Notes under the pieces: generated by a model
What the model saw: the letters and a program-made list of their open reading frames with translations, nothing else
The model's database searches: none
What the model was told of the DNA's origin: nothing
Program-made: the position numbers and the translations under genes
Assembly (NCBI RefSeq): GCF_009996735.1
Contig: NZ_JAACYI010000001.1
Coordinates: 132,522 to 196,521, forward strand
Source: Cellulomonas sp. APG4
GTDB taxonomy: Bacteria; Actinomycetota; Actinomycetes; Actinomycetales; Cellulomonadaceae
Length of the DNA: 64,000 bases
Reading direction: 5' to 3'
Part shown: piece after piece, positions 19,843 to 62,123 of the stretch
Position numbering within the stretch: position 1 is the first letter of the stretch
Layout: every line of letters starts with the position of its first letter

Positions 19843-20615
19843 CCGTCCACCTTCCCGAGGGGTCCCGCGGCGGAGGCGGCGGCGACGGCGCCCCCGCGGG
19901 GTGTGAGCGCCGGTCTGGGCTGGCGCAGCGGGACCCAGAGCACGTACCGGTCCGCCCGGTAGGCGGACCGGGAGTACACGAGGGCGACGTCGCCCGTGAA
20001 GGTCCGTCGCTCGACACGCAGCACGGCCGCGCCGGGACGCAGGCCCAGGTGCTCGGCGTCCTCGGCGTCCGCCTCCGAGGCAGCGACGGTGTCCTCGCCC
20101 CAGTCGGGCTCGAGGCCGCGGCGGCGCAGGTCGCCGTAGACGCTCTCGGGCACGCCGTCGGCCAGGAGGTTGGGCACCAGCGCCACCGGGAGCCAGGCCT
20201 GCTCGATCGCCATGGGGGTGCCGTCGGCGTAGCGCACGCGGTGCAGGTGGTGCACGGGCTCACCGGGCTGCAGGTCGAGCGCGTCGGCGACGTCGGGGGC
20301 CGCCGGCGCCTGCTCGGCGACGAGCACGTGCGACGAGGGCTCCATGCCGCGGCGGCGCATCTCCTCGCCGAACGAGGTGAGGCGCACCTCCATGTCCATC
20401 TTCGTCGGGGCGACGAACGTGCCACGTCCCTGCTCACGCACCAGCAGCCCCTCGACCACCAACGCGTCGACCGCCTGGCGCACCGTCATGCGCGAGATCC
20501 CGAAGCGCTCGCACAGCACGCGCTCCGAGGGGATCACGTCCCCGGGCTCGAGCTCGTGGGTCACGAGCGAGCGCAGGTAGTCGCGCACACGCACGTACTT
20601 GAGCGAGTGACCCAC
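19839..20615 (-). CDS. GntR/HutC-family repressor, DasR/NagR-like
   Basis: The protein has 258 residues from GTG 20615 (VGHSLKYVRVRDYL); an in-frame GTG at 20663 would add 16 residues without a better ribosome site. The winged-helix domain (to about 75) has IPSERVLCERFGISRMTVRQAV, and the UTRA effector domain follows (GEPVHHLHRVRYADGTPMAIEQAWLP). This is the subgroup of DasR and NagR, which bind aminosugar phosphates and repress PTS genes. Support comes from dre-like sites upstream of this gene/EIIC (20693-20708) and of HPr (22490-22505). It is first in the operon gntR - EIIB - EIIA - HAD, so it is likely autoregulated. Confidence 0.85.
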   Translation of the reverse strand: MGHSLKYVRVRDYLRSLVTHELEPGDVIPSERVLCERFGISRMTVRQAVDALVVEGLLVREQGRGTFVAPTKMDMEVRLTSFGEEMRRRGMEPSSHVLVAEQAPAAPDVADALDLQPGEPVHHLHRVRYADGTPMAIEQAWLPVALVPNLLADGVPESVYGDLRRRGLEPDWGEDTVAASEADAEDAEHLGLRPGAAVLRVERRTFTGDVALVYSRSAYRADRYVLWVPLRQPRPALTPRGGAVAAASAAGPLGKVDG

Positions 20616-20692
20616 GTCCGTCGCAACCCCTTCGTCGCACCCTCGGCACCGACCCCTTGACACTGCGGGGCCATCCCATCATGGTGGGGCCG

Positions 20693-20708
20693 ACTGGTCC
20701 AGACATCT
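20693..20708. promoter_or_regulatory. dre-like DasR operator between gntR and EIIC
   Basis: ACTGGTCCAGACATCT matches 13 of 16 positions of the DasR responsive element consensus as I know it (ACTGGTCTAGACCACT). It lies in the divergent region between the GntR gene and EIIC, where it could control both. The better half is TGGTC-CAGAC; the right arm is degenerate. Confidence 0.6.
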
Positions 20709-20817
20709 AGCACAGCATGTCCCCAGCACGGTCCTGCGGGCAGTGACGCCCGCCCCAGGACGCGCAGCGCGCCGGCGCCCGCCGTCGCGCACCGCACACG
20801 ACGAGGAGTGCACGCGC

Positions 20818-22179
20818 ATGACCGCCACGACAGCCCCCGAGGTCCGCGAGAAGCGACCGATCCCCGGCTTCGCCCAGCTGCAACGCATGGGGCGTTCCCT
20901 CATGCTCCCGATCGCGTCGCTGCCCGCGGCGGCCCTGCTCCTCCGGCTCGGGCAGCCGGACATGCTGGGTGCCGACGGCCTCGCGGGCGCCTGGGGCGAC
21001 TGGCTGCTGCCCGTGGCGTCGGTGCTCGGATCGGCCGGCAACGCGCTCTTCGCCAACCTGCCGCTGCTGTTCGCCGTCGGCATCGCGGTCGGATACGCAC
21101 GCAAGTCGGACGGCTCGACCGGCCTGGCCGCCGTCATCGGCTACCTCGTGTTCAAGGGCGTCACCGACGCGCTGTCCCCGTTCGCGCTGGGCGAGGCGGC
21201 CGAGGGCGAGACGCAGGAGCTCATCAACTACGGCGTGCTGGGCGGCATCGTCATCGGCGTGGTCACCGCGCTGCTGTACCAGCGCTTCTACCGGATCAAG
21301 CTGCCCCCGTACCTCGCGTTCTTCGGCGGGCGCCGGTTCGTGCCGATCGTCACCGCGGGCTCGGCCGTGCTCATCGCCGTCATCGGGACGCTCGTCTACC
21401 CCGTGTTCGACGCGGGCCTCACCGCGGTCGGGCAGTTCGTGACCGGCAGCACGATCCTCGGCGGGTTCGTCTACGGCACGGCCAACCGCCTGCTCGTGCC
21501 CATCGGCCTGCACCACCTGCTCAACTCGCTCCCGTGGTTCCAGTTCGGCGAGTTCGAGGCCGACGGCGAGATCTGGCAGGGCGACATCAACCGGTTCCTG
21601 CACGGCGACCCGACGGCGGGCACGTTCATGACGGGCTTCTTCCCGATCATGATGTTCGCGCTGCCGGCCGCGGCGCTCGCGATCGTCCACACGGCCAAGC
21701 CCGCCAAGCGCAAGATCGTCGCGGGCATCATGGGATCGGCGGCGCTCGTCTCGTTCGTCACCGGCGTCACCGAGCCCCTCGAGTTCGCGTTCGTCTACGT
21801 GGCCTACCCGCTCTACGCGATCCACGCCGTGCTCACCGGGACGTCGCTCGCCCTGGTCAACGCACTCGACATCCGCAGCGGGTTCGGCTTCAGCGCGGGC
21901 GCGATCGACTACCTGCTCAACTTCCGGATCGCCGAGCAGCCGCTGCTGCTCATCCCGATCGGGCTCGCCTACGGCGCGCTGTACTACGTGCTGTTCCGGT
22001 TCGTCATCACGCGCTGGAACCTGCGGACGCCGGGCCGCGAGGACGACGACACCGTCGCCGACAACAACGTGCTCGTGGACCAGCCGGTCGACGCCTCCGC
22101 GGCGGGGGCGAGCGCGACCGCCGGCGCCGGCACGGTGCGGACGGGCGACGAGCCCGCGCCCGGCCGGACGTCGGGCTGA
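20818..22179 (+). CDS. PTS EIIC, N-acetylglucosamine/glucose type
   Basis: The protein has 453 residues with about ten membrane segments. It starts FAQLQRMGRSLMLPIASLPAAALLLRLGQ, the standard entry of NagE/PtsG EIIC domains, and carries the substrate-loop signature VTGVTEPLEF (about 335). GLHHLLNS also matches. A non-conserved, charged tail (about 425-453) follows the last helix, with no EIIB or EIIA fused. ATG 20818 has GAGGAG about 11 bases upstream. It is the sugar channel for the EIIA and EIIB encoded divergently. The dre-like site and GntR gene upstream favour N-acetylglucosamine as the substrate. Confidence 0.92.
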   Translation: MTATTAPEVREKRPIPGFAQLQRMGRSLMLPIASLPAAALLLRLGQPDMLGADGLAGAWGDWLLPVASVLGSAGNALFANLPLLFAVGIAVGYARKSDGSTGLAAVIGYLVFKGVTDALSPFALGEAAEGETQELINYGVLGGIVIGVVTALLYQRFYRIKLPPYLAFFGGRRFVPIVTAGSAVLIAVIGTLVYPVFDAGLTAVGQFVTGSTILGGFVYGTANRLLVPIGLHHLLNSLPWFQFGEFEADGEIWQGDINRFLHGDPTAGTFMTGFFPIMMFALPAAALAIVHTAKPAKRKIVAGIMGSAALVSFVTGVTEPLEFAFVYVAYPLYAIHAVLTGTSLALVNALDIRSGFGFSAGAIDYLLNFRIAEQPLLLIPIGLAYGALYYVLFRFVITRWNLRTPGREDDDTVADNNVLVDQPVDASAAGASATAGAGTVRTGDEPAPGRTSG

Positions 22180-25874: not shown

Positions 25875-26133
25875 CCGCCGACGGCCGAGACCGTCACGGC
25901 TGCGCCGGGGAGCCCCGGTCCGGCTGGACACGCGCACCACGCGAAACCCTTCTCCGGTCCTGCGGCGAGCGTAGACCCCACGGCGCGCGCTGCATCACCC
26001 GAGGACACGCCGGTTCGCGCATCGGTTCGAGGATGTGCGTCGTGGGACACCCGCCTGGGCAAAGGAGTCCGGGCAGCCGGCGCCCGCCGCGACCCGAGGT
26101 GAGCGCCTTGAGGTCGAGGGACACCACACACGA

Positions 26134-26165
26134 CGAAGGCCCGGACCATCAGGTCCGGGCCTTCG
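26134..26165. terminator. Strong hairpin beside tRNA fragment (terminator)
   Basis: Perfect 14-base arms CGAAGGCCCGGACC (26134-26147) and GGTCCGGGCCTTCG (26152-26165) with a 4-base loop, followed on the plus strand by TCTTCTTG. It sits 8 bases beyond the 3' end of the minus-strand tRNA fragment, where a tRNA terminator would be expected. Confidence 0.8.
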
Positions 26166-26173
26166 TCTTCTTG

Positions 26174-26215
26174 TAGCGGGGGCAGGATTTGAACCTGCGA
26201 CCTCTGGGTTATGAG
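26174..26215 (-). other. att site: 3' half of an elongator tRNA-Met gene
   Basis: Read on the minus strand, this 42-base piece begins in the anticodon loop (CTCATAA, anticodon CAT) and continues through CCCAG, the variable loop, a perfect T-arm (GCAGG-TTCAAAT-CCTGC) and the acceptor strand CCCCGCT with discriminator A. The bases before the loop (GCGTCG) cannot pair with CCCAG, so the 5' half is missing. No CCA is encoded. An isolated tRNA 3' half next to an integrase gene is the hallmark of an integration junction. Confidence 0.8.
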
Positions 26216-26366
26216 CGACGCAACCTTGCCCGAAACCGTGGCCACAGCTAGCGTCGATACCAGCATCTTCACAGGTCAGGAGGCACATCACTGTCCGCCG
26301 GTGTCCGGCCACGTACGTGCCCGTACGGGTACGGCTGCTGACCATCTGCTCACCAGAGGAGGTTCG

Positions 26367-27479
26367 ATGGGCTGGGTGGTCGAGCGGCCGAGGCAACGCG
26401 GACGGCGGTACACCGGGGTCTACCGCGACACCCACGGGCGCCTTCGCTCCGCCGGCACGTTCGACTCCCGCCGAGAGGCGGAGCGGGCAGCGATGCGCGC
26501 GGAGGAAAGGATCACAGACGGCACGTGGGTCGATCGACGCGCAGGCCGGGTGACGTTCCGGGCGTATGCAGAGGACGTCTGGCTGCCGTCCCGCCACCTT
26601 GAGGTCTCGACGCTCGCTGCGTACCGCTCCTATCTGCGCCGGCACTTCATCCCGTTCTTCGGCGAGATGCGGCTGGCGCAGATCACCGCGTCGAACGTGC
26701 AGACCTGGGTCCGGTCTGCCCTCGACCAGGGCTTGTCCCCTCGGTCGATCGCCAAATACCACGTGATGCTGCACTCGGTCTTCGCCCGGGCGGTCCGGGA
26801 CCGGCTCATCGCCTTCAACCCCTGCGAGAGCACGGAGTTGCCCAAGGTGGTCACCAAGAAGGCTCGGACCTTGACACCTGAGGAGTACTCCGCCGTCCTG
26901 GCCGAGATCCCGCCGAGGTTCAAGCCGATGGTGATGACGGCGATCGAGACCGGGCTGCGGTGGGGCGAGCTCGTCGCGCTGCGACCGCGGCACGTCGACT
27001 TCCTGCGCCGCACGATCACCGTCGAGGAGACGATCGTCGAGGTCTCGCGCAAGGACTCCCCGACCGGCGAGCGCCTCATCGTCAAGCCCTACCCGAAAGA
27101 CGACGAGCCCCGAACACTCCGCGTGTCGCAGGGCCTGCTCGACGTCCTTGCTGGCCGCATTGCCGAGCTCGGCCTGACTCGTGACGATCTACTCTTCCCG
27201 TCGCGCGAGACCGCCGGAGGACAGCCGCTGTCGCGTGCGACGTTCAACACACGGCACTGGAGGCCCGCAGTCGAGCGCTCCGAGGTGGACTTCACGGTGC
27301 GCATGCACGACCTTCGGCACGCGCACGCCTCGTGGCTGCTCGCAGGTGGCGCAGACCTGAAGACGGTCATGGAGCGCATGGGGCACTCGCAGATCATGAC
27401 GACGCAGCGGTACCTTCACACCCTTCCGGAGGCGCAGGACGAGGCGCTCGCCGCATTCGAGAGGATTCGGACCCGGTAG
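26367..27479 (+). CDS. int: Tyrosine site-specific integrase
   Basis: The protein has 370 residues. The N-terminal arm-binding region (1-55, GRRYTGVYRDTHGRLRSAGTF) and SAM-like core-binding domain (about 60-150, LAAYRSYLRRHFIPFFGEMRL) precede the catalytic domain. Catalytic residues seen: Arg198 (TGLRWGEL), His314 and Arg317 (MHDLRHAH), the GHS motif and nucleophile Tyr349 (TTQRYLH). ATG 26367 is fixed by GAGGAGG 5 bases upstream, although the frame is open further back into the tRNA fragment. It lies 151 bases from the tRNA fragment and most likely catalysed integration there. No excisionase gene is visible next to it. The gene looks intact. Confidence 0.93.
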   Translation: MGWVVERPRQRGRRYTGVYRDTHGRLRSAGTFDSRREAERAAMRAEERITDGTWVDRRAGRVTFRAYAEDVWLPSRHLEVSTLAAYRSYLRRHFIPFFGEMRLAQITASNVQTWVRSALDQGLSPRSIAKYHVMLHSVFARAVRDRLIAFNPCESTELPKVVTKKARTLTPEEYSAVLAEIPPRFKPMVMTAIETGLRWGELVALRPRHVDFLRRTITVEETIVEVSRKDSPTGERLIVKPYPKDDEPRTLRVSQGLLDVLAGRIAELGLTRDDLLFPSRETAGGQPLSRATFNTRHWRPAVERSEVDFTVRMHDLRHAHASWLLAGGADLKTVMERMGHSQIMTTQRYLHTLPEAQDEALAAFERIRTR

Positions 27480-27714: not shown

Positions 27715-30700
27715 TCAGTCGTGGGCCGCCGGGCGGGGCGCGACCGCGTGGTGCATCACCAGAAGGGCACGCGGCGGTCGTCGATCGTGCGCACGGTCCC
27801 GCAGTGCCTCAAGGAGTGCGTCGGCGTCAGCGGCAGCGAGCCCGGCGGTCGGTTCGTCCAGGACCAGTACGGCCGGGTCACGCAGCAGCGCGCGCGCAAG
27901 GACGAGCCGTCGCCGCTCCCCCCCGGAGATCGTCGCCCCGCTCAGCCACGTGTCGAGCCCGTCCTCCAGGCCGGCGAACCACCCGCCCAGATGGGCGTCG
28001 TGCAGCGCCCGCACCAGGGCGTCGTCTGGGGCGTCCGGGCACGCGAGGCGAAGGTTCTCGCGCAGAGTCGTCGCGAAGACGTGGTCGGCGTCGCCGGCGA
28101 GCGCCACGAGGCCCTCCCGACGGGCGTCCGCCGGCTCCCGTCCGCACACCACGACCCGGCCGGCTGCGGGAGCCCTCAGCCCCACGAGCACCGCGGCCAG
28201 GGTCGACTTGCCGCCGCCGGAGGGCCAGGTGATCTCGCGCACCTGGGCAGGTGCGACAGTGAGGTCGACGCCATCCAGGACAGGTCGGCCGCCCCACCCC
28301 GCGTGCAGGCCCGCGACGACGACGCCCTCGCAGGCGTCGCTCTGCTGGGTCCGGCGGGCGCCGGCATCGGAGGCGACGGCGGGGGCGCCGGCTACCGCAC
28401 CGAGTGCGGCGAGCCGGTTCGCGGCGGAGGCGCCGCGATGACGGGCCCGGGCCGCTGGCAGGAGCTCCAGGAGCACCTCCCCGGTCGCGACCGCACCGAG
28501 CAGGAGCACCGCTACCTCCTCCGGTCCGAGGTCGCTGCGCGGGGCGAGCGCGGCGGCGAGTGCCGCGCCCACGACCGCCACCGCGCCACCGACCTCTGCG
28601 ACCGCGCGCCCGAGGCCGTCGGTCCGCGCGTCCTGCGCGCGGGCCGCCTCCGCCGCCTGCTCGCGGGCGGCGAGCTCGCGGCGTACCGCCCGGTCGAGCC
28701 CGTCAGCGCCCTCGACCGCGGCCACGACGGCGTCGTGCAGCGCCTCGCCGGTCGACTCCAGGACCGGACCGTGCTGCCGGTCGGCACGGAGGACGGTCCA
28801 GGGTGCGAGGATACCCGCGGTCACCACCGCGAGCGCCCACGGCAGGAGGGTCGCTGGATGCAGCCACGCGAGGCCCGCCGTCGCGACGGCGAGCGCTGTC
28901 AGTGCGGCCGCGATCGGCACAGCCCCGCGGACGCGCCCGTCGAGCCTGGTGTCGACGTCCTCCACGACGCGGAGCAGGAGCGTCCCCCGGCGGGCGGTGA
29001 GACGACCGGGCACCTGCGGGATCAGCGCCGCGACCACGTCCCCGCGCCACCCCGCCAGAAGGGACAACCCGGCGTCGTGGGAGGCGAGTCGCTCGAGGTA
29101 GCGGAAGAGGGGCCGCGCGATGGCGAAGCTGCGCACGGCGACCACCGCGAGCGACAGGGTGAGGATCGGCGGCTGGGCGGAGGCGCGCACGATCATCCAG
29201 CTGGCGGCCACCGTCAGGCCGATCCCTGAGAGCAGGGACGCTGCCCCCGCGACGGCCGCGACCGCGAACCGGGCGCGCGCGTCCATCGCGGACCACTGCC
29301 GCCGGACCCCCACGAGGAGGCCGGTGTCCTCCGTGGTGCCGTCGGAGGCGACCGGCAGCTCACGGCCCGTCACGTCGTCGTGCGGCGCCGCGGCCCCACC
29401 CGACCCTGCGCGCTCGGGCGTCGCACCGGGCGCCCGCTCGGTCAGACGGGCCTGCTCGACGCGAACCACCCGGTCCGCGGCCCGGGACACCGGTTCGCGG
29501 TGGGTGGCGACCAGCACCGCGACCCCGCGCGCCGCCGCATCGCGCAGGCGCCGGAGGACGGCCTGCTCAGCGCCCGCGTCGAGGTGCGCAGTGGGCTCGT
29601 CCAGCAGCAGCGCGACGTCCTCCCCCGCCGCCCCGGCGTCCTCGGCCAGCACGAGCGCCCGTGCGAGCGCGAGGCGGTGCCTCTGCCCGGTCGAGAGACC
29701 GCCGCCGTCGTCCCCGAGCGGCGTGCCGAGGGCCACCTCGCCCAGCCCGAGCGCCGCGAGCACCTCCGCAGCACGCTCGTCGCCGGTGTCGAGCGCCTCA
29801 CGGACCGTACGAGCCGGCGGCAGCTGGGGCCGTTGGGGCACGTGCAGGGCGCCACGCGCCCAGACCCGGCCGCGGTCGGGCGTGCCGTGCCCGGCCATCA
29901 GCCGCAGGAGCGTCGTCTTGCCGCTGCCGGACCGCCCGACGATGGCGACCAGTTCCCCGGCTCGCACCGTCACGTCCGGGAGGACCACCGGCCGCCGGCG
30001 CCCCGCGAACCGAACGGAGGCGCCCTGTGCCCCCGCGGCCGACCCCTCCTCCCCCTCGCCGTCCTCACGTGCGGTGCCCCCGCCTGCCCCTGCCATCGCG
30101 TCGAGGCGGTCCATCACGGCGCTCGCCTGCGCGGACTCGTGGAACTGCGCCCCGGCTTCCCGCAGCGGGCGGTATGCCTCGGGCGCGAGCATGATCGCCG
30201 CGAGGGCCGGCCAGAGAGCCATCTCGCCGCCCGCCAGCCGCACCCCGGCGCCCACGGCGACGATCCCGACGGACACGGTCGCCACGAGGTCGAGCGCGGT
30301 CGAGGACAGGAAGGCCACGCCCAGCACCCGGGTCGTGGCTCGGGCGTACGCCCGACTGGACCGCCTGACCTGCTCGACCTGGCGCTCGGCGCGGTCGTAG
30401 AGCCTCAGCGTCACCAGCCCGCGGACCACGTCGAGGAAGTGCCCGGCGAGCCGGCCGCCGTGCGCGTACTGCTGGTCGGCGCCGCGTCGGGTGGCCCACC
30501 CGACGAGCGCCGCGAATAGGGGCACCAGCGGCAGGGTGAGCAGCACGGTCATGGCGGACGGCCAGTCGACCAGCACGAGCAGCGCGAGCACGACCGGAGG
30601 CAGCACGCCAGCGACCACGAGCGCGGGCAGGTAGGCCGCGAACCAGGGCCGGAGTGGGTCGAGTCCCGTGGACAGGACCGCGGCCGGGTCACCGCCCGCC

Positions 30701-31047
30701 CGGACCGCGGCGCCAGGATCGCGCGTGAGCGACTTGAGGCCGACCGCGCGTGCGCCCGCGACCGCAGCGCCGCTGACGCGTTGGGCGACCGTCGGCTGCG
30801 CGTGGGCGAGCCCCGTGCGCACGACGAGCGCCGCGGACAGGACGAGCAGGGCCTGCTCCCACCGCGCACCCTCGACCAGAGCCACCACCAGCCACGTCAG
30901 CGTGAGCGCCACCGCGACCGTCGTCAGGGCCTGCGCGACGGCCACCGCGACGAGCGCCGCGAGGGCACCGCGGACGGGCGCGGCGAGGCGGAGCAGCCGC
31001 AGGTCCACCGGGCCGGGACCACTACCGCGAGACGGGGCCGCGCTCAT
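27715..31047 (-). CDS. cydDC: Fused heterodimeric ABC exporter CydDC
   Basis: The protein has 1110 residues, two ABC half-transporters in one chain. CydD-like half: membrane domain (about 15-320) and ATPase with Walker A GRSGSGKTT (about 374), signature LSTGQRHR and Walker B VALLLDEPT. CydC-like half: membrane domain (about 610-850) and ATPase with ISGGERRRL and VLVLDEPT. In the second Walker A the first Gly is replaced by Trp: TWPSGGGKST, Trp codon 28225-28227, which is atypical. CydDC exports thiols and/or handles haem and is needed to assemble cytochrome bd. The start ATG overlaps the cydB stop (ATGA), completing the operon cydA - cydB - cydDC. Confidence 0.93.
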   Translation of the reverse strand: MSAAPSRGSGPGPVDLRLLRLAAPVRGALAALVAVAVAQALTTVAVALTLTWLVVALVEGARWEQALLVLSAALVVRTGLAHAQPTVAQRVSGAAVAGARAVGLKSLTRDPGAAVRAGGDPAAVLSTGLDPLRPWFAAYLPALVVAGVLPPVVLALLVLVDWPSAMTVLLTLPLVPLFAALVGWATRRGADQQYAHGGRLAGHFLDVVRGLVTLRLYDRAERQVEQVRRSSRAYARATTRVLGVAFLSSTALDLVATVSVGIVAVGAGVRLAGGEMALWPALAAIMLAPEAYRPLREAGAQFHESAQASAVMDRLDAMAGAGGGTAREDGEGEEGSAAGAQGASVRFAGRRRPVVLPDVTVRAGELVAIVGRSGSGKTTLLRLMAGHGTPDRGRVWARGALHVPQRPQLPPARTVREALDTGDERAAEVLAALGLGEVALGTPLGDDGGGLSTGQRHRLALARALVLAEDAGAAGEDVALLLDEPTAHLDAGAEQAVLRRLRDAAARGVAVLVATHREPVSRAADRVVRVEQARLTERAPGATPERAGSGGAAAPHDDVTGRELPVASDGTTEDTGLLVGVRRQWSAMDARARFAVAAVAGAASLLSGIGLTVAASWMIVRASAQPPILTLSLAVVAVRSFAIARPLFRYLERLASHDAGLSLLAGWRGDVVAALIPQVPGRLTARRGTLLLRVVEDVDTRLDGRVRGAVPIAAALTALAVATAGLAWLHPATLLPWALAVVTAGILAPWTVLRADRQHGPVLESTGEALHDAVVAAVEGADGLDRAVRRELAAREQAAEAARAQDARTDGLGRAVAEVGGAVAVVGAALAAALAPRSDLGPEEVAVLLLGAVATGEVLLELLPAARARHRGASAANRLAALGAVAGAPAVASDAGARRTQQSDACEGVVVAGLHAGWGGRPVLDGVDLTVAPAQVREITWPSGGGKSTLAAVLVGLRAPAAGRVVVCGREPADARREGLVALAGDADHVFATTLRENLRLACPDAPDDALVRALHDAHLGGWFAGLEDGLDTWLSGATISGGERRRLVLARALLRDPAVLVLDEPTAGLAAADADALLEALRDRAHDRRPPRALLVMHHAVAPRPAAHD

Positions 31048-32042
31048 GTGGGCACGGGGTCGCTCGCCACGCGCCGCCGGAACACCCAGTACGCCAGCCC
31101 CTGGTACGCGAGGACGCCGGGCAGGAGGACCAGAGCCGCCCAGCTGATGGTGCTGAGCGCGTACGCGCTCGCCCGCGCAGACTCGATCGTCACCGACCAC
31201 GCCGGGTCGAGCGTGCTGGACAGCAGCACCGGGGCGTCCTGCACAAGCAGGGCGACGACGACGACAGCCTGGACGGCTACGGAGAGGGCAAACGCCCAGC
31301 CCTCCCTGCCGGCACGGGCCGCGAGGGCCGCAGCGCCGAGGACGGCGACGCACGCGCCGACGACGGTGCCCGGGAGCCCTCCCCCGATGCCGGCGACCAG
31401 CACCACGGCGGCGAGGACACCGGCGGACGGGCCGACCCACGCCCGGGCCCGGTCCCGGACGCCACCCGTCGTGCGGAGGCCGAGGTACGTCGCGCCGAGC
31501 AGGGTCGCGGCGGCAAGGCCGCCGAGGGCGCCCAGGAGGGCACCGGGCTGGGCGAGCGTCCCTGCGGTCCGGGCGAGCGCGCCGCCGTCCGCCGCGACCT
31601 CCCCGTCCGGGCCGAGCGCGAGCCCGCCCGCGAGCACGCCGACCACCGCGCCGAGCAGCGAGGCCGTGGCGGCCGAGCTGACGGCGAGGGCCGCGTCGCA
31701 GCGCGCGCGCCACCGCTCGTCGTCGCGCTTGCCCCGGAACTCCAGGGCCACACCCCGCACTGCGAGGCACAGCAGCAGGGCCGCCATGGGCAGGTAGAGA
31801 CCGGACAGCGCGGAGGCGTACCAGTCGGGGAACGCGGCGAACATCGCCCCGATCGCCGCGACGAGCCACACCTCGTTGCCGTCCCACACCGGCGCGATGG
31901 TCCGCAGCGCTGCGCCGCGCTGCGCGCCGCCGCGGCCGAGGACGGGGGCGAGCATCCCGACACCGAAGTCGAAGCCCTCGAGCACCAGGAAGAGCGCCCA
32001 GCACAGGACCACGAGGCCGAACCACAGCAGGGCAAGATCCAC
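31044..32042 (-). CDS. cydB: Cytochrome bd oxidase subunit II
   Basis: The protein has 332 residues with about eight to nine membrane helices. The N-terminus LLWFGLVVLCWALFLVLEGFDFGVGML and WDGNEVWLVAAIGAMFAAFPDWYA are diagnostic for CydB. Together with CydA it forms the quinol oxidase that reduces oxygen with high affinity in the membrane. GTG 32042 is preceded by GAGGAG. The gap to cydA is 8 bases and the 3' end overlaps cydDC by four bases. Confidence 0.95.
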   Translation of the reverse strand: MDLALLWFGLVVLCWALFLVLEGFDFGVGMLAPVLGRGGAQRGAALRTIAPVWDGNEVWLVAAIGAMFAAFPDWYASALSGLYLPMAALLLCLAVRGVALEFRGKRDDERWRARCDAALAVSSAATASLLGAVVGVLAGGLALGPDGEVAADGGALARTAGTLAQPGALLGALGGLAAATLLGATYLGLRTTGGVRDRARAWVGPSAGVLAAVVLVAGIGGGLPGTVVGACVAVLGAAALAARAGREGWAFALSVAVQAVVVVALLVQDAPVLLSSTLDPAWSVTIESARASAYALSTISWAALVLLPGVLAYQGLAYWVFRRRVASDPVPT

Positions 32043-32050
32043 GGGACTCC

Positions 32051-33550
32051 TCAGTAGGTGGGGACGGGCGCGCGGTCGCCGTCGTCGGCGTCGGCCCCGT
32101 TGGTGCGGACGGGGCGCGAGGTGAGGTCCTCTGCGACGAGGTGCCGGACAGCCCGGTACCAGACGAGCGCGAGGACGCCGTAGACCAGTCCGAAGCCGAC
32201 GAGGGAAGTGAGCACCTCGGCGCTGGTGAGGCCCGAGCCCACGCCGTCCTCCGTGCGGAACAGCCCGAAGACGAGCCACGGCTGACGGGCGGTCTCGGTG
32301 AAGACCCACCCGAAGGTGTTGGCGAGCACCGGCAGCGCGGGCAGCAGCGGCAGGCAGGCGAGCACGCCGGTGCCGAGGAGGGTCCGCAGGCTGCCCCGGC
32401 CGGCGAGCACGCCCCGGGTGGCGCCCGCGAGGCCGCCTCCGTGCCGCACGAGGCCCTGGCCGCGACGCGTGACCCACAAGAACAGGACGGCGAGGGTGGC
32501 CGCCAGCATGCCGGTGCCGATCATCAGCCGGAAGGTCCAGTAGGCGACGGGGACCCACGGCACGTAGTCGCCGGGGCCGTGCTCCTGCACGTACTGCGCC
32601 TGGAGGTCGTCGATGCCCTGGACGGTCGCGCCGGGGTCGCCGTGCGCGAGGAGCGAGAGCAAGTACGGGACGTCGAGGGAGAGCAAGGGCTCTCCGCCGC
32701 TACGTGGGTCCCCGATCGCGAAGACGGAGAACGGCGCGCCGGCCTGCGTGACGTACAGGGCCTCCGCCGCGGCCATCTTCATCGGCTGGACGGCCGTCAT
32801 GACCTTGCCGAGCAGGTCCCCCGTGATCGCGACGGCAAGCCCGGCGACCGCCGTGACCCATCCGCCGAGGCGGGCGAGGGTGCGCCATGCCAGGTGGTCT
32901 TGCTCCCCCCGCGCGGTGGGACCGCGGCCCCATGCACGCCAGGCGCCGACGGCCATGAGCAGCGCGCCGCCGGTCATGGCGGCGCCGGCGATGGTGTGCG
33001 GGTACGCCACGAGGTTGACCTCGTTGACCATGAGGGCCCAGAAGCTGTCCAGCTGCGCCCGGCCCGTCCGCGGGTCGACCTGGTACGCGACGGGGTTCTG
33101 CATGAACGAATTGGCGGCGAGGATGATGAAGGCGGACAGCAGCGTCCCGATGGCGACCACCCAGATGGTCGCGAGGTGCGCGAGCCGGGGCAGGCGGTCC
33201 CAGCCGAAGAACCACAGGCCCAGGAATGTGGCCTCCAGGAAGAAGGCAAGCATGCCCTCGATCGCGAGGGTGGGGCCGAAGACGTCCCCGTAGAAGCGGG
33301 CGAAGTCGCTCCAGGACAGGCCGAACTGGAACTCCTGCACCAGGCCGGTCACGACGCCCACGGCGAAGGTGACCATGAGAAGCTTGCCCACAAGCAACGT
33401 GAGCTCTCTGTAGTGCGGGCGCCCCGTGCGGTGCCACGCCGTCTGGAGGCCCGCAGTCAGGGCCGCCAGGGAGATCGACAGGGGGACGAAGAAGTAGTGG
33501 TAGATCGTCACGACCGCGAACTGCAGGCGTGCGAGCTCCAGGGTGTCCAC
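32051..33550 (-). CDS. cydA: Cytochrome bd oxidase subunit I
   Basis: The protein has 499 residues with nine expected helices. Haem ligands are recognisable: His18 (IYHYFFVPLS) and the His in VAYPHTIAGA, with GKLLMVTFAVGVVTGLVQEFQFG near the haem pocket. The Q-loop (around GDPRSGGEPLL) is the short form typical of actinobacteria. It oxidises quinol and reduces oxygen. GTG 33550 has AGGAGA about 8 bases upstream. The promoter region is shared with a divergent BlaI/MecI-type gene and holds dyads and a minus-strand TTGACA (33618-33623), so expression is probably controlled by that regulator. Confidence 0.95.
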   Translation of the reverse strand: MDTLELARLQFAVVTIYHYFFVPLSISLAALTAGLQTAWHRTGRPHYRELTLLVGKLLMVTFAVGVVTGLVQEFQFGLSWSDFARFYGDVFGPTLAIEGMLAFFLEATFLGLWFFGWDRLPRLAHLATIWVVAIGTLLSAFIILAANSFMQNPVAYQVDPRTGRAQLDSFWALMVNEVNLVAYPHTIAGAAMTGGALLMAVGAWRAWGRGPTARGEQDHLAWRTLARLGGWVTAVAGLAVAITGDLLGKVMTAVQPMKMAAAEALYVTQAGAPFSVFAIGDPRSGGEPLLSLDVPYLLSLLAHGDPGATVQGIDDLQAQYVQEHGPGDYVPWVPVAYWTFRLMIGTGMLAATLAVLFLWVTRRGQGLVRHGGGLAGATRGVLAGRGSLRTLLGTGVLACLPLLPALPVLANTFGWVFTETARQPWLVFGLFRTEDGVGSGLTSAEVLTSLVGFGLVYGVLALVWYRAVRHLVAEDLTSRPVRTNGADADDGDRAPVPTY

Positions 33551-33577: not shown

Positions 33578-33657
33578 TCTACTACAGAACGTCGTAGATG
33601 TTACACGGCCTAGTACGTGTCAAGTAGTACGACAAGGTCCAAAGGTCCCGGTAGGAT
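33578..33657. promoter_or_regulatory. Divergent cydA/blaI promoter-operator region
   Basis: A dyad TCTACTAC (33578-33585) / GTCGTAGA (33591-33598), one mismatch, sits upstream of cydA, and TAGTAC occurs twice 14 bases apart (33611-33616, 33625-33630). BlaI-type repressors bind TACTACA/TGTAGTA-like dyads, so these are candidate operators. On the minus strand TTGACA (33618-33623) could be the -35 of cydA. On the plus strand TAGGAT (33652-33657) lies 7 bases before the ATG of the BlaI-like gene, which predicts a leaderless transcript. Confidence 0.55.
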
Positions 33658-33664
33658 CTGCGCC

Positions 33665-34027
33665 ATGGCGATGGGTGAGCTCGAGAGCGCCGTCATGGCG
33701 CATCTGTGGGACGCCGAGCAGCCGTGCACCGTCCGCGAGGTGCACGAGGCGCTCCAGGCGGACCGGCCGCTCGCCTACACCACTGTGATGACCGTCATGG
33801 ACCGCCTCGCCAAGAAGGGCGCGGTCACGCAGCTCCGGGAGGGCCGCGCCTATCGCTATGCCCCGCTGCGCAGCCGCGAGCAGACCACGGCCGAGCTCAT
33901 GCTGGATGCCCTCGGCCTGAGCGACGGGACCGACGCCCGCGTCGCCGCCCTCCAGCACTTCATCGGGCGGGTCAGCTCCGCCGAGGCCGATGCGCTCCGC
34001 GCCGCCCTCGGGCGTCCCGCGCTCTGA
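33665..34027 (+). CDS. BlaI/MecI/CopY-family transcriptional repressor
   Basis: The protein has 120 residues. The winged helix (about 1-75) reads GELESAVMAHLWDAEQPCTVREVHEAL and PLAYTTVMTVMDRLAKKGAVTQ, a clear BlaI pattern, followed by a short dimerisation helix region. Such repressors are inactivated by proteolysis when a membrane M56 peptidase senses a signal; that peptidase is encoded next (34067). No beta-lactamase gene is near. The gene is divergent from cydABCD, suggesting control of cytochrome bd, as well as of itself. The start is the first ATG after a -10-like TAGGAT, so the mRNA may be leaderless. Confidence 0.88.
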   Translation: MAMGELESAVMAHLWDAEQPCTVREVHEALQADRPLAYTTVMTVMDRLAKKGAVTQLREGRAYRYAPLRSREQTTAELMLDALGLSDGTDARVAALQHFIGRVSSAEADALRAALGRPAL

Positions 34028-34066
34028 CCGGCAGCCCGCGACCGTGACCGCCCCGCGCGGAGCACC

Positions 34067-34975
34067 GTGACGGCACTGTCCCTCGCAGCCCTCGCCGTCC
34101 TGCTGTCGGTCGCTGCGCCTGTCGCGCTCGCGCGGCTCCGACCGCTGCACCGGGCGCCCCGGGCGGCCGTGGTGCTCTGGCAGGCTGGGGCGCTTGCCGC
34201 GGTGCTCGCCGCCGTCGGCGCCGCCCTCGCCGCGCCGGAGGAGATCTGGCGGGCGGTGCGGAGCGAGCAGGGCGCGCGCGACGCCTGGCTGCTGGTCGCG
34301 GCCTCCGTCGCCGCGCTCACCGCGGGCACCATCGTCCTGCGGCTGACCGTCACCACCCTGCGGCTCGGCGTCGTACTGCGACGCCGTCGCCGTCGGCAGC
34401 GGGACGCCCTTGATCTCCTGGGCGCGTTCGACGACGACGCCGCCCGGCTCCACGTTCTGAGCGGCACCGTCCCGCTGGCGTACTGCGTCCCCGGTCGGCC
34501 CGCGCGCGTCGTCGTGACCGAGAGGGTGCTCCAGGTGCTCGACGAGGCCGAGACGCGCGCCGTCGTCGAGCACGAGCGGGCCCATCTGCGCGCCCGCCAC
34601 GACCTCGTCCTGGAGGCGTTCACCGCCCTGCACGTCGCCTTCCCCCGCGTGGTCCGCAGTCGCCTCGCCCTGGACGCCGTCAGCACCCTGCTGGAGATGC
34701 TCGCCGACGACGTCGCGGCACAGCGCACCGGGCCCGGGCCCCTGCGCCGTGCCCTCTGTGCCCTTGAGCCGAAGGCCGCAGGGCACGAGGTCGCGCTGCG
34801 CCGCGCGCGCCTGGAAGACGTCTACCCCGACGACGGGCCTCGGGGGCACGCCCGGGCAGTTGCCGCCGGCGCCTACCTCGCCGGCGCCGCCGTGCTCGCG
34901 GTCCCCACCGTTGCCCTCGTCACGCCCTGGCTCCGCGCGGCGGTGAGCGCCCTTACCGGTGCGCCGTCCGAATGA
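34067..34975 (+). CDS. M56-family membrane metallopeptidase (BlaR1-like, no sensor domain)
   Basis: The protein has 302 residues with hydrophobic segments at about 2-20, 35-55, 75-100 and 270-292. The zinc motif HExxH is HERAH (His169, Glu170, His173) in VVEHERAHLRARHD. There is no C-terminal penicillin-binding domain as in BlaR1, so the stimulus must be sensed by the membrane part or another protein. GTG 34067 follows GCGGAGC, 39 bases after the repressor stop. Likely role: cleave the neighbouring BlaI-like repressor and induce cydABCD. This role is inferred from gene order. Confidence 0.85.
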   Translation: MTALSLAALAVLLSVAAPVALARLRPLHRAPRAAVVLWQAGALAAVLAAVGAALAAPEEIWRAVRSEQGARDAWLLVAASVAALTAGTIVLRLTVTTLRLGVVLRRRRRRQRDALDLLGAFDDDAARLHVLSGTVPLAYCVPGRPARVVVTERVLQVLDEAETRAVVEHERAHLRARHDLVLEAFTALHVAFPRVVRSRLALDAVSTLLEMLADDVAAQRTGPGPLRRALCALEPKAAGHEVALRRARLEDVYPDDGPRGHARAVAAGAYLAGAAVLAVPTVALVTPWLRAAVSALTGAPSE

Positions 34976-35818: not shown

Positions 35819-36322
35819 GTGACTGAGCAGCGCGTTATCGCCAACAAGCCGAAGATCGGCGCCCAGAGCGGCGCCGCGCCAGCCAAGCCGTCGGATGCGG
35901 AGGCCCCGCGGACGCGGCGCAGCATGAAGATGGTCGTCATCCTGGCGGTCCTCGCCCTCCTCGGCGCGGCGGCGGGCTACTGGTTCCTCATGGGTCCAGG
36001 GGCAGACGCTGAGGAGGGCGTGGTGCAGGAAGCGCCGGAGGCTGGTGTGGTGCAGGAGCTCGAGCCGATCAGCCTCAACCTGGCCGGCGGCCGGTACCTC
36101 CTGATCGGCTTGGGGCTGCAGCTCACGGCAGAGGTCGAGGAGGAAGTCGAACCATCAATCGCGCTGGACCGCACGATCGCCCTGTTCTCGGGGCGGACCA
36201 TCGAGGAGGTCAGCAGTGCGGACGGGCGCGCGGCGCTGAAGGCGGAGCTCGCTGCTGTGCTGGCGAAGGACTACCACGGCGAGGTGATGGGCGTGTTCAT
36301 CACGACCTTCGTGACGCAGTAG
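35819..36322 (+). CDS. FliL-like flagellar basal-body protein, isolated
   Basis: The protein has 167 residues from GTG 35819. A charged N-terminus, one membrane helix (about 36-56, MKMVVILAVLALLGAAAGYWF) and the FliL domain follow: EPISLNLAGGRYLLIGLGLQLT, ALDRTIALFSGRTIEEV and the end GEVMGVFITTFVTQ are typical. FliL binds the stator and supports torque. No other flagellar gene is in the window, so this is an orphan copy, probably moved with the island. The start has no clear ribosome site. A broken gene overlaps its end by 23 bases on the other strand. Confidence 0.8.
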   Translation: MTEQRVIANKPKIGAQSGAAPAKPSDAEAPRTRRSMKMVVILAVLALLGAAAGYWFLMGPGADAEEGVVQEAPEAGVVQELEPISLNLAGGRYLLIGLGLQLTAEVEEEVEPSIALDRTIALFSGRTIEEVSSADGRAALKAELAAVLAKDYHGEVMGVFITTFVTQ

Positions 36323-36880
36323 TGGCAGAACGCTTGCCGTGCGCCTGGGTCCTCAGCGCTGTGTCTGCCAGGGCTGACTGCCGGAGGAAGTCGTCGGAAC
36401 GCTGTGCATCGAGGGCGGCGGACAGAGCCGACTCAGCCATGTCTCCCTTGCACGTGTCGCGCGCTATCTGCCCGACGGCCGCGCGGATGTCCTCGGCGCG
36501 GTCGGTGTCTGCATCGACCTGCGCGGTGATGTTCTCCTCCTCCGCCCGTGCGGCCTCGAGCCATTGGGCGATGAGGTCGGCCTCACGCTGGAGCCGTGTG
36601 AGCTCTGCCTCAGCGGCGACGGTTTCCGCCTCGGCAACCGGGATCGCCGCGTCCAGGGCCTGGCGCTCGGGGTAGGCCCGCACCAGGTGCGGCGTCGGTG
36701 TGGGCGAACTCCTCCTCAGCGTGGACTGCGCCAGGATCCCGTGGACGAGGCGATGTCGACTCGTCCTCGCTGCGGCGGTCGTCGTACTCATCGGCATGAG
36801 CCGGCTCGAGAGGCGCCCCAACCGTGAGCACCGAACCGACGACGAGCGCGCTCAGCCCTGCGCGAAGTCGAGTCCTTCAT
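36300..36880 (-). pseudogene. Truncated, frameshifted secreted coiled-coil/NlpC-P60-type protein
   Basis: On the minus strand one frame encodes a good signal peptide (SALVVGSVLTVGAPLEPAHA followed by DEYDDRR, about 36780-36850). A second frame continues with a long coiled coil: QALDAAIPVAEAETVAAEAE, then QREADLIAQWLEAARAEEEN and DIRAAVGQIARDTCKGDMAE (about 36310-36680). This order matches the N-terminus of actinobacterial secreted NlpC/P60 hydrolases. At least one frameshift separates signal peptide and coiled coil, a further shift affects the start near ATG 36880, and the catalytic C-terminus is missing where fliL begins. A decayed remnant is the best reading; the family assignment comes from layout only. 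Confidence 0.6.
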
Positions 36881-37142
36881 GTGAGGGTCTCATCGCTCAC
36901 CGACGGTGGTGACGTCAGGTCGAGCGGCGCGCCGGTCCATCCGACTGGGACGCCGCTCGGTGTGCGCTGCTCGGCGCCGGTGGTGCCAGGCCCGACTCGG
37001 GCCTTGACGTCGGGCGAGCCGGGGGGAAGTGCCTACACGCGGTCGGTGCACAGTCGGCGTCGGGCAGGATGGCGGGAAGTTCGCGCTCAGGACTTCGCGC
37101 GCCGGACGGGTACCAGAAGACGACGAAAGAGGGTTCGAACCC

Positions 37143-37817
37143 ATGGCCTCGACAGCCCATCCGCAAGTGTTGCCCCACGCCCGGGCGGGAGTGTGCCTTG
37201 CCCGTGCCGGCGCGGTGTTGGTTGCCTCGCTGCTGCTCCTGGGCTGGGCCCCGGGCCAGGCGGTGGCCCACGACGCCCTGGTGAGCACCGCGCCTGGTGA
37301 CGGGACGACGGTCGAGGAACCCGACGCGGTGGTGCTGACGTTCTCCGCTGACCAGCTCGCCGTGGGGGCCGTCGTCGCGGTGACCGGACCCGATGGGCAG
37401 GAGTGGGGCGACGGTGCCGCGACGGTGTCCGGCGTCACCGTGGCCCAGCCGCTTCGCGAAGGCCTCCCGTCCGGGGAGTACCAAGTGAACTGGCGCTCCG
37501 TGTCCGGTGACGGACATCCTGTTGACGGGACCTTCCGCTTCACCGCCGAGGCGCCGGAAAGCCTGAGCGCACCTGAGCCGTCACCGAGCGGGCCTGCGAC
37601 GTCGCCTCCGCCGGAGCCCTCGGCGGCGTCGGAGCAGGCCGGCCCCGGCGCCGGGGAGCCGCAACCGGATCAGGGTGAGCCGGAGGACAGGAGCGGCCGC
37701 GGCATTGGTGCGCCGACGGCTGTGGGGCTTGCGATCGCCGCCGCCGCGATCGTGGCGGTTGGTGGAGCGGTCTTCCTGCGGCGGCGCAGCGGCGGTGAGC
37801 GGCGCACTGAGCCGTGA
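37143..37817 (+). CDS. copC: CopC-domain copper-binding protein with C-terminal membrane anchor
   Basis: The protein has 224 residues. The signal peptide ends at AVA before His43, so the mature protein begins HDALVSTAPGDGTTV, where the N-terminal His is the CopC copper ligand; the second ligand region is GDGHPVDGTFRF. A Pro/Ser/Glu spacer (about 140-190) and one membrane helix (about 195-215) with RRR end the protein. It should bind copper outside and pass it to CopD. ATG 37143 is preceded by GAGGG and by a perfect palindrome GGGTTCGAACCC (37131-37142). The stop overlaps the copD start (GTGA). Confidence 0.9.
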   Translation: MASTAHPQVLPHARAGVCLARAGAVLVASLLLLGWAPGQAVAHDALVSTAPGDGTTVEEPDAVVLTFSADQLAVGAVVAVTGPDGQEWGDGAATVSGVTVAQPLREGLPSGEYQVNWRSVSGDGHPVDGTFRFTAEAPESLSAPEPSPSGPATSPPPEPSAASEQAGPGAGEPQPDQGEPEDRSGRGIGAPTAVGLAIAAAAIVAVGGAVFLRRRSGGERRTEP

Positions 37818-39922
37818 GCAGGGTGCTTCCACCTCGAGCCGGGGCAGCGCCCGACGCGGACCCGGGAGAGGCACGCGCTCGGCGCCGTCGCCTCGGCGTG
37901 ATCGTGGGTGCCGTGGTTGCAGTGGTCGTGGTGCTGGCCAGCGGCGGGTGGTCTGGTGCATGGCAGGCGACGGCGCTGGCCGACCCCGGTGCACTGGTCC
38001 GCTGGTCCTCGCCGATCGTCACCGTGCTGTCGGAGCTGGCAGCGGCGGTGACTGTAGGGGCGTTGTTCCTTGTGGTGGCGATCCTTCCCAGTGGATCTTC
38101 CCGCGAAGCCGTGGGGGCCAAGGCCTGGCCTGCCGCGGGGGTGGTGGCCGGGGCGGGCGCCGGTATGTGGACGGTGCTGAGCATCGTTGACGCGGTACTG
38201 ACGTACGCCAGGATCACCGGGACGTCGCCGCAGGCCGAAGGGTTCGGCAGCCAGCTCGCGCTGTACGTGGGGTCGGTCTCCGGTGGGCGCACCCTGCTGG
38301 GCGTTACCGTGCTGGCGGCGATCACCACGGTCCTCGCGCTGCTGGTCACAGGACCACGCAGTGCGGTTGTCGCGGCCGTGCCTGCGTTGACGGCGTTCGC
38401 GCTGTGGTCCCAGACGGGGCACGCGTCGGGTGACGCAAACCATGAGCTCGCAGTGGGCGCGATGTTCTTGCACCTGGTCGGTGCCGCGCTGTGGATCGGG
38501 GGGCTCGCGGCGATCGCGCTCGTGGCTCGTCATCTCGGCGGCGCCCTGGGCACCACCGTCGCGCGCTGGTCGCCGGTAGCGGCGTGGTCGCTGGCCGCTG
38601 TCGTGGTCTCAGGGCTGGTCAACGTAGTCCTGCGCACCGACGGGCCCGAGGATCTGACGACGCCCTACGGAACGCTGATCGTCGCCAAGGTGCTGCTGAC
38701 CGGAGGCCTGGCGCTCCTGGGCCTGGTGCATCGCCGGTCCGTGATACCCCGCCTCGGGCCGACAGCGTCGGGCCGAGCACCCGCGCTGTTCTGGCGCCTC
38801 GTGGCCGTCGAGCTCGCGGTCATGGGCGCTGTGTCCGGTGTCGCGGTCGGGCTCGGCAGCACCGAACCACCCGGCGCCGTGACGGCCAGCGGTGACCTCA
38901 CCCCGGCCGAGGTCATCACCGGCCATCCGCTGCCGCCGGCCCCGACCGTCGAGCTGTGGCTGACGTCCTTCCGGTGGGACCTGATCATCGCGGCCGGCTG
39001 CGCCAGCGCCCTGGTCGTCTACCTGCGGTGGGTGCGCCGCCTACGTGCTCGCGGGGACCGGTGGCCGCTCACCCGGACGGCGTGTGCCGTCACGGGGCTC
39101 GTGCTGCTGGGATGGGTGACCTCCGGTGGCCCGGCGGTGTACGGGCACGTGCTGTTCAGCGCGCACATGATCCAGCACATGGTCCTGATCATGGTCGTGC
39201 CGATCTTCCTGGCCCTGTCGGCGCCGGTGACGCTCGCCGCACGTGCTCTGCCGGTGCGGCACGACGCCTCCTGGGGGCCACGGGAGTGGCTGCTGGGACT
39301 CGTCCACTCGCGCTGGGCGCGGTTCTGGTCGCACCCGGTCGTGGCTGCGGTGAACTTCGCCGGGTCGCTGGTGATCTTCTACTACACGCCGGCGTTCGAG
39401 TACGCCCTTCGGTGGCAGATCGGAACCGTGCTGATGGTGGCGCACTTCACGCTCGCCGGTTACCTGTTCGTCAACGCCCTGGTCGGCATCGACCCGGGCC
39501 CACGGCGGCCCGCGTTCCCGATCCGACTCCTGCTGCTCTTCGCGACCATGGTGTTCCACGCGTTCTTCGGCGTCGCCTTGGTCATGCAGGAGACCCTCCT
39601 TGTCCCTGAGTGGTTCGGGATGCTGGGTCGACCGTGGGGGCCGTCCGCGCTGGAGGACCAGCGGGACGGTGGCGCGATCGCGTGGGGCATCAGCGAGGTG
39701 CCGATGCTCGCCCTGGCCATCGGTATCGCCCTGGCGTGGACCAAGGACGACGAGCGCACCGCGAAACGTCTGGACCGCGCCGCGGACCGCAGCGGCCACG
39801 CCGATCTGGCCGCCTACAACGCGATGCTCACTCGCATGGCCGAGCGCGCCGACGCCAATGACCCCGGGGGCACGGAGCAACCTGGGTCCCCCAAGCGCTC
39901 GGCGGGGACGCCGGTCGATTGA
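37814..39922 (+). CDS. CopD-CtaG fusion: copper transport and oxidase assembly membrane protein
   Basis: The protein has 702 residues. The N-terminal half (about 65-360) is a CopD domain with paired histidines (TGHASGDANHELAVGAMFLHLVGAALWIGG); the C-terminal half (about 380-670) is a caa3_CtaG domain (YGHVLFSAHMIQHMVLIM, FFGVALVMQETLL). It probably takes copper from CopC across the membrane and supplies it to cytochrome c oxidase assembly or lowers toxicity. GTG 37814 overlaps the copC stop. Such fusions are common in actinobacteria. A second, stand-alone CtaG is encoded at 41360. Confidence 0.92.
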   Translation: MSRVLPPRAGAAPDADPGEARARRRRLGVIVGAVVAVVVVLASGGWSGAWQATALADPGALVRWSSPIVTVLSELAAAVTVGALFLVVAILPSGSSREAVGAKAWPAAGVVAGAGAGMWTVLSIVDAVLTYARITGTSPQAEGFGSQLALYVGSVSGGRTLLGVTVLAAITTVLALLVTGPRSAVVAAVPALTAFALWSQTGHASGDANHELAVGAMFLHLVGAALWIGGLAAIALVARHLGGALGTTVARWSPVAAWSLAAVVVSGLVNVVLRTDGPEDLTTPYGTLIVAKVLLTGGLALLGLVHRRSVIPRLGPTASGRAPALFWRLVAVELAVMGAVSGVAVGLGSTEPPGAVTASGDLTPAEVITGHPLPPAPTVELWLTSFRWDLIIAAGCASALVVYLRWVRRLRARGDRWPLTRTACAVTGLVLLGWVTSGGPAVYGHVLFSAHMIQHMVLIMVVPIFLALSAPVTLAARALPVRHDASWGPREWLLGLVHSRWARFWSHPVVAAVNFAGSLVIFYYTPAFEYALRWQIGTVLMVAHFTLAGYLFVNALVGIDPGPRRPAFPIRLLLLFATMVFHAFFGVALVMQETLLVPEWFGMLGRPWGPSALEDQRDGGAIAWGISEVPMLALAIGIALAWTKDDERTAKRLDRAADRSGHADLAAYNAMLTRMAERADANDPGGTEQPGSPKRSAGTPVD

Positions 39923-39926
39923 GCGG

Positions 39927-40841: not shown

Positions 40842-41218
40842 CAGCGGCTGCCCTCGTGTCCGGTGTGCTCCCGGCACACGTCCAGCAGCATCCGCACGTG
40901 GGCATCGGCCAACCGGTAGTACACCCGGCGGCCCTCACGCCGGTTGTCCACCACCCCCGAGGCCCGCAGCAGACGCATCGTCTGGGACACCGACGCCTCG
41001 GGGACCTGCACCGCCGCGGAGATGTCGCAGACGCACAGCTCACCGGCCTCCAGCAGCGCGTAGAGGATCTTGGTACGCCGTACGTCACCGAGCAGTCGGA
41101 ACAGCGCGGCCAGCGTCCCTGCCTCGGCGTCGTCCGGGACGCTGGCGCGGACCAGTGCCACGCGTTGGGACTGCGGATCACCACCGATGCAGCCGTCCAG
41201 CGGCAAGACCCGACCCAT
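40841..41218 (-). CDS. ArsR/SmtB-family metal sensor controlling the CDF exporter
   Basis: The protein has 125 residues. The winged helix includes LLGDVRRTKILYALLEAGELCVCDI with the Cys62-x-Cys64 pair (ELCVC) used by CadC-type sensors, and VPEASVSQTMRLLRASGVV as recognition helix; the C-terminal helix ends with CREHTGHEG, candidate extra ligands. I chose ATG 41218 because GAGGAG lies 6 bases upstream; an ATG two codons earlier (41224) directly abuts that site. It likely represses itself and the CDF gene until Zn/Cd/Pb binds. A dyad sits just upstream of the ribosome site. Confidence 0.88.
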   Translation of the reverse strand: MGRVLPLDGCIGGDPQSQRVALVRASVPDDAEAGTLAALFRLLGDVRRTKILYALLEAGELCVCDISAAVQVPEASVSQTMRLLRASGVVDNRREGRRVYYRLADAHVRMLLDVCREHTGHEGSR

Positions 41219-41230
41219 GGTCATCTCCTC

Positions 41231-41250
41231 ATCTGCGCGGATCTTCAGAT
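41231..41250. promoter_or_regulatory. Dyad upstream of CDF-linked arsR
   Basis: ATCTG (41231-41235) and CAGAT (41246-41250) are inverted copies 10 bases apart, directly upstream of the GAGGAG ribosome site of the ArsR-type gene. ArsR-family operators are imperfect dyads in this position. Confidence 0.4.
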
Positions 41251-41359
41251 AACGTCACCCTAGCGCGCTGTGGTGACCCAGCCCTCGCGGCCCGGACGAT
41301 GGCCTGCAAACCCGTGTGGCCGTCGGAAGGGCAGCGCGCAGACACGGAGGAGGAGCGGG

Positions 41360-62122: not shown

Positions 62123-62123
62123 C

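Follow-up and report, generated by a model that had tools for sequence, protein, structure and literature searches.

A genomic island of about 51.6 kb, with a tyrosine integrase and an apparent terminator of its own, at the single initiator tRNA gene of Cellulomonas sp. APG4

In the window, a stretch of 64,000 nucleotides from Cellulomonas sp. APG4, the 3' half of a tRNA gene lies close to the gene of a tyrosine integrase. The question is whether this half marks the end of an integrated element or has some other origin. Very probably, it is the left end of a genomic island of about 51.6 kb, which has its own tyrosine integrase, is inserted in the single initiator tRNA-fMet gene and carries its own putative hairpin terminator. 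Tyrosine-integrase islands and prophages at tRNA 3' ends were reportedly classified by Williams in 2002. A class IA example of a tRNA-integrated island is PFGI-1, in the available part of PMC2647930.

The displaced tRNA half and the empty site

The features at the two borders are as follows.

26110-26172, minus strand: native sequence past the 3' end of the initiator tRNA, including the putative terminator hairpin, displaced to the left (16-bp stem; likeness to the congener G002)
26173-26216, minus strand: displaced 3' half of tRNA-fMet, the left copy of a 44-bp direct repeat (pattern search, alignment)
Window-equivalent 77726-77769 (C11:210247-210290), outside the window, same strand: right copy of the 44-bp repeat (pattern search)
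C11:210247-210321 (window-equivalent 77726-77800; L007:14248-14322), same strand as the half: intact tRNA(CAT)
26173-64000 in the window, then on to window-equivalent 77769, unstranded: the island (repeats, G002, G011)

The genome gave 47 tRNA matches, and three of the tRNA sequences read have a CAT anticodon: a tRNA-Ile type, an elongator tRNA-Met and an initiator type. Initiator tRNAs are recognised by a mismatch between positions 1 and 72 and by three G-C pairs in the anticodon stem. The isotypes of the three CAT tRNAs were named by such commonly known sequence hallmarks. The target tRNA begins with CGCGGGG, its first base is unpaired, and GGG/CCC adjoins the anticodon loop. By these features the target of the island is the initiator tRNA-fMet, the sole initiator found in the assembly. 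The first-pass annotation had named an elongator tRNA-Met, which was rejected since a separate elongator gene is located elsewhere in the genome, as is the tRNA-Ile(CAT).

When the whole genome was searched for the pattern, with up to 3 mismatches allowed, two places matched: the half itself and an identical copy at C11:210248-210289 on the same contig and strand. The maximal identical block is 44 bp and extends no further at either side; it begins with the final base on the 5' side of the anticodon stem, includes the anticodon loop and ends one base beyond the discriminator. The half had been placed at 26174-26215 on the minus strand; the strand is right, and the exact block is 44 bp (26173-26216) rather than 42. 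The right copy lies inside an intact tRNA(CAT), at a core-to-core distance of 51,553 bp. The expectation of a rebuilt full tRNA beyond 64 kb was thus borne out. No tRNA was detected in the window by ARAGORN, or by Rfam at the gathering threshold, and the 5' half is therefore absent, as had been claimed. The direct repeat at both borders is the tRNA 3' end, and at one border the intact tRNA is rebuilt. Base composition was rejected as an island marker because the GC content of the island (0.719) hardly differs from that of the left side (0.726).

The congener G002, which has no island, shows the empty site: both flanks are contiguous around one intact tRNA. When the two flanks of APG4 were joined and aligned with G002, two mismatches were found from the hairpin through the tRNA; this is the comparison with an island-free relative that the first-pass annotation had proposed. 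Neither outcome that the annotation had named as refuting it was seen, given these contiguous flanks and the identical 3' end to the right. The conserved order of genes in the left flank was considered as support for the junction, and rejected since the congener loci that were examined do not keep it. In none of these loci did the genes left of the native terminator turn up beside the tRNA; one set of the loci reaches only about 1.5 kb beyond its match. A chromosomal stretch at 19898-22176 of the window is inverted in G011 (C5:59829-62177), about 38 kb from the attachment site there, so that the left region has been rearranged. The evidence for the left junction is hence the native hairpin, the alignment with the empty site and the boundary in G011.

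The island is also present in G011, the genome of a second species, where it occupies the same tRNA. Counting only pieces longer than 1 kb and above 85% identity, 45,542 of the 51,628 bp align at 96.6% identity. The identity of the right chromosomal flank is 81% (among the matches listed), and that of the best left-flank stretch is 78%. At the left end the identity ends exactly at the half tRNA, with 150 of 150 bases identical inside and 18 of 60 outside. This comparison is strong sequence evidence that the island has recently passed from one species to another and entered the same site. The repeat, the empty site and the G011 boundary agree that the chromosome lies on the left and a large island begins on the right.

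Partial tRNA copies may have several origins, according to the part of PMC9897764 that was available, and the APG4 genome is a draft assembly of 48 contigs (completeness 99.98%). The half might then be a decayed duplicate or an assembly artefact and no integration junction at all. However, its 44 bp are identical without decay, the native terminator is attached to it, and an intact partner stands in register. Moreover, the same type of junction was seen at 20 of 23 integrase relatives, and G011 has the same boundary. The empty-site alignment and the shared island contradict such an origin, which is very improbable.

As a mechanism, the attachment site of the island would hold the last 44 bp of the tRNA-fMet gene. 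Strand exchange in the anticodon arm would swap the native 3' half for the copy of the island; this would restore an intact tRNA at the right border and leave the native half, together with the native terminator, at the left one. The displaced half of G011 carries a T-loop change that is absent from its rebuilt tRNA, and the same changed half occurs in two further genomes. The changed base is a conserved T-loop base, which we take to be C56; it is changed to A in the displaced halves of all three genomes (L010:4807, L020:4793, L028:4739). As the changed half was found in three genomes, the change probably predates integration. Provided that the variant is older than integration, the data are consistent with an exchange somewhere from the T-loop to the 5' strand of the anticodon stem. 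A crossover in the anticodon loop, as proposed before, is consistent with this on the anticodon-loop side. The halves with C56 changed to A stand next to a 13.8-kb element, and three different integrases come after them. Two explanations offer themselves: an earlier start tRNA with this change, or the use of displaced halves as targets.

The integrase and the paired end repeats

Three features near the borders may belong to the recombination machinery.

26367-27479, plus strand: tyrosine integrase of 370 aa (Pfam/NCBIfam scan, alignments)
26337-26355, minus strand: left repeat pair with an 11-bp period, putative integrase arm-type sites (repeat scan, permutation test)
L007:14169-14187 (window-equivalent 77647-77665): right partner repeat pair

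The longest open reading frame of the integrase starts at 26211; the start at 26367 was taken as the relatives align from there. It lies 150 bp past the half tRNA, which agrees with the intact integrase previously described at 151 bases. The catalytic residues are conserved: Arg198, a Lys (240 or 244), His314, Arg317, His340 and Tyr349 are invariant in the integrase and 18 relatives, and an alignment with XerD agrees. An intact tyrosine integrase with its catalytic residues therefore stands near the border. The alignment included the APG4 protein and 18 of the 23 relatives; those omitted were L019 (a long interrupted match), L028 and L030 (stops), and L029 and L032 (partial).

The 23 relatives were found in genomes named Cellulomonas, Actinotalea, Pengzhenrongella and Nocardioides, and in an Aeromicrobium MAG. 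In the 20 with the same junction, a tRNA half with up to 2 mismatches and in the same orientation starts 194-262 bp before the integrase. The other three are L015, whose half is degenerate (12 mismatches), and the partial integrase matches L029 and L032. No integrase match was found in plasmid records at E 1e-30. The 101 matches in phage records were all below 60% identity (34.7% in the first match, among the best 10 of 101), and a scan of viral contigs with the integrase gave 3 weak partial matches. One relative (L011), whose integrase is 95% identical to that of APG4, comes from a MAG with the name Aeromicrobium choanae; the native hairpin next to its tRNA half is Cellulomonas-like, and the contig is possibly misbinned. 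The translations of the integrase stretches L028:5001-6076 and L030:5001-6091 hold 1 and 5 stops, respectively. These integrases may be broken, and the stops are perhaps due to frameshifts.

Arm-type sites are known from lambda-like integrases. The paired repeats at both ends of the island are likely integrase arm sites, as judged by their position and pairing, and the integrase would bind them. With a threshold of at least 7 of 8 bases alike and an 11-bp period, a pair just before the integrase was found in 20 of 22 left ends, APG4 included; L011 and L025 have none at this threshold. Of 22 right ends of the element type, 14 have similar pairs past the hairpin, and the other 8 have none at the threshold used. 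In both sources, a pattern built from the two APG4 sites had no further match when up to 3 mismatches were allowed (chance expectation 0.17 and 0.07); since the pattern was derived from the two sites themselves, only its rarity elsewhere counts as evidence.

The left and right pairs were compared in 11 elements of which both ends could be read, and 13-16 of 16 positions agree in 10 of them. In the remaining one, the 13.8-kb element of G011, 8 positions agree. None of 100,000 permutations equalled the agreement of all 11 elements, whose repeat pairs were picked by eye with the pairing known beforehand. The 11 elements include two copies of the APG4 island and several of one repeat class, and hence a reduced set of 6 was also used, whose agreement was equalled by 54 of 20,000 permutations. 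In G009, the two ends are on different contigs. Neighbouring elements in the G017 and G013 arrays differ in their pairs, and each pair has its match within its own element.

Native and element-type hairpins

The native hairpin left of the half has a 16-bp stem, and a 67-nt stretch folds at -43.1 kcal/mol (z -8.3); a terminator-like hairpin past the 3' end of the half had been noted earlier. In G002 a near-identical native hairpin stands directly after the intact tRNA. At the right end, the island carries another hairpin beyond its tRNA half. The rebuilt tRNA would thereby retain a transcription stop, and the island-borne hairpin apparently replaces the native terminator.

The element-type hairpin was present in 22 of 71 distinct attachment contexts, namely 15 of 50 intact tRNAs and 7 of 21 halves. 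For the genus, 19 genomes were searched, APG4 included, and the intact tRNA with its 3' flank was read in 15 (among the matches listed). The element-type hairpin stands behind the intact tRNA in 12 of these 15, APG4 included; G002 has the native type, and G010 and G012 have others. No arm-like repeats follow the hairpin in 5 of the 12 genomes (G003, G005, G006, G007 and G018). Such hairpins are possibly remnants of lost elements; alternatively, the element-type hairpin might be a native type that was acquired by elements.

The pairing of the element-type hairpin is conserved as its sequence changes. Among 19 distinct hairpins, 98.8% of the pair cells are paired and 8 pairs are changed on both sides; none of 500 shuffles reached this covariation score. 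The alignment included 19 of 20 distinct trailers, and the one omitted is identical over 47 columns. The motif that defines the element-type class covers one side of pairs 5-11, so that independent evidence of covariation comes from pairs 12-21 only. Another hairpin, which GCTAC at the tRNA end would form with a GTAGC in the trailer, was rejected because its pairing is not kept among the elements.

It is rather unlikely that the element hairpin is a DNA structure related to recombination, or a protein site, instead of the terminator of the rebuilt tRNA. A motif like CAGGTCAGAGG occurs on both attachment-site arms, and a part of the hairpin may accordingly serve recombination; moreover, no T-run follows the element hairpin of APG4. 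However, the native hairpin of APG4 also has no T-run. The covariation preserves the pairing, and the element hairpin resembles the native one in position and in fold energy (-43.0 vs -43.1 kcal/mol), which argues for a terminator.

Cargo, mobility and related elements

Family names of the cargo were taken from Pfam and NCBIfam scans of chosen island ORFs.

27715-33550, minus strand: cytochrome bd set (cydA 32051-33550; cydB 31044 to about 32036; fused cydDC 27715 to about 30972)
33617-34975, plus strand: BlaI-type repressor and M48 peptidase
35819-42352, unstranded: FliL-like protein, CopC, CopD-CtaG fusion, cation efflux protein with ArsR-type regulator, CtaG
Within 42363-50281, minus strand: apolipoprotein N-acyltransferase, CcsA-/ResB-type cytochrome c biogenesis, DUF305, DUF3105; also DsbD-type protein, thioredoxin-like protein, ArsR-type regulator
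Within 50320-60287, unstranded: signal peptidase II, P-type ATPase, CadD-type transporter, flavoprotein disulphide reductase; also CueP, DsbA, VKOR, Nramp transporter
60657-64000, plus strand: start of an arsenic-resistance operon (ArsR-phosphatase fusion, arsenate-reductase-like proteins, flavoprotein)
Past the window: ArsD, ArsA, ArsB, MerR-type regulator, excisionase-like protein (L007:6668-7063)

The plasmid matches of the P-type ATPase are named heavy-metal translocating. None of the 149 plasmid records that match positions 28000-52800 of the window covers 80% of it, and the best 10 of the 149 cover at most 9%. An FtsK-like translocase (PF01580) had 5 matches in the genome, none of them between C11:158695 and 210290. 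The TrwC family relaxase was found only on contig C44 and not in the island, and the Pfam scans of chosen island ORFs gave no relaxase. No replication initiator was recognised in the scanned ORFs; four ORFs within L007:7142-10354 have no family. Phage structural or packaging families were also absent from the Pfam-scanned island ORFs, and PHROGs was run on 6 island proteins. As no FtsK-like, TrwC or phage structural genes were seen, the movement would be by another or a borrowed route. The island probably moves between cells by the machinery of a helper; helper-dependent elements are described in the available part of a review (PMC11389934).

The 51.6 kb might also be two or more nested or fused elements with one pair of ends. 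The copy in G011 exceeds that of APG4 by about 25 kb and is different in the right quarter, the excisionase-like gene is about 44 kb from the integrase, and congeners have tandem arrays at the same site. Nevertheless, no third tRNA half was found in the genome (up to 3 mismatches), the repeats are matched at the two outer ends, and about 39 collinear kb are common to the two islands at 97-98% identity. A composite origin is thus unlikely, and the stretch is better regarded as a single island.

At the initiator tRNA of G011, G013, G016 and G017, two or three islands stand in tandem (among the matches listed), and the array of G013 spans about 126 kb. The 13.8-kb element stands in tandem with other islands (L140:5248-19033, the same as G011:C5:101247-115032). 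In G011 its cargo includes an integrase, SDR, thioesterase, DoxX, RND pump, MFS pump and MarR regulator, and no transfer genes were found among the 9 ORFs scanned. Junctions with a spacing near-equal to this element, seen as junctions only, were found at G013:C1 117060-130845 and G016:C1 793042-806864.

The following comparisons are with the parts of the published descriptions that were available. The islands at tRNA 3' ends are alike in having the integrase at one end, a repeat that is the tRNA 3' part through the anticodon loop, a rebuilt intact tRNA and tandem arrays; for example, tandem insertion at one tRNA is described in PMC11476347. The APG4 island differs in that its target is the sole initiator tRNA, and its integrase is at the displaced-half end and does not adjoin the rebuilt tRNA. 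In ICEKp1 of Klebsiella (PMC13023037), integration likewise moves the native tRNA terminator to the far end; its integrase gene is placed after the tRNA and, since the terminator is lost, is transcribed from the promoter of the tRNA. In contrast, the APG4 element brings a hairpin, and its integrase is at the opposite end. The actinomycete ICEs (PMC3218068) are also actinobacterial, with tyrosine integrases and tRNA 3' ends as sites, and one of them, Faln5456, is in a tRNA-Met; whereas the APG4 island has no FtsK-like translocase, and no replication gene was recognised in its scanned ORFs. The tycheposons (PMC10872708, PMC11389934), likened here by description only, share a tyrosine recombinase, a tRNA border and large cargo, and tRNA-Met is named among their integration sites (PMC10872708); their hosts are unrelated.

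Islands integrated in tRNA genes are thus well known, and the initiator-tRNA hotspot together with a carried terminator is a less usual variant. In the accessible parts of the open-access literature, no description was found of islands that occupy a sole initiator tRNA gene and bring a terminator along. Phage HP1 may also carry a terminator at its tRNA attachment site, and if true, this would weaken the novelty of the carried terminator.

Base-exact ends are now given for a mobile metal-handling island. Compared with ICEKp1, it lands in a gene that is expected to be essential and single, and it appears to replace the lost terminator and not to exploit its loss. The rule that the element brings a terminator could aid the finding of element ends in other genomes. 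Tentatively, the island may represent an actinobacterial family of cargo islands specialised on the initiator tRNA gene, whose 3' end is taken over, so that transfer would rewrite the tRNA unit. If this doubtful reading is true, the half with C56 changed to A would stem from a tRNA rewritten in this way, or from displaced halves that served once more as targets.
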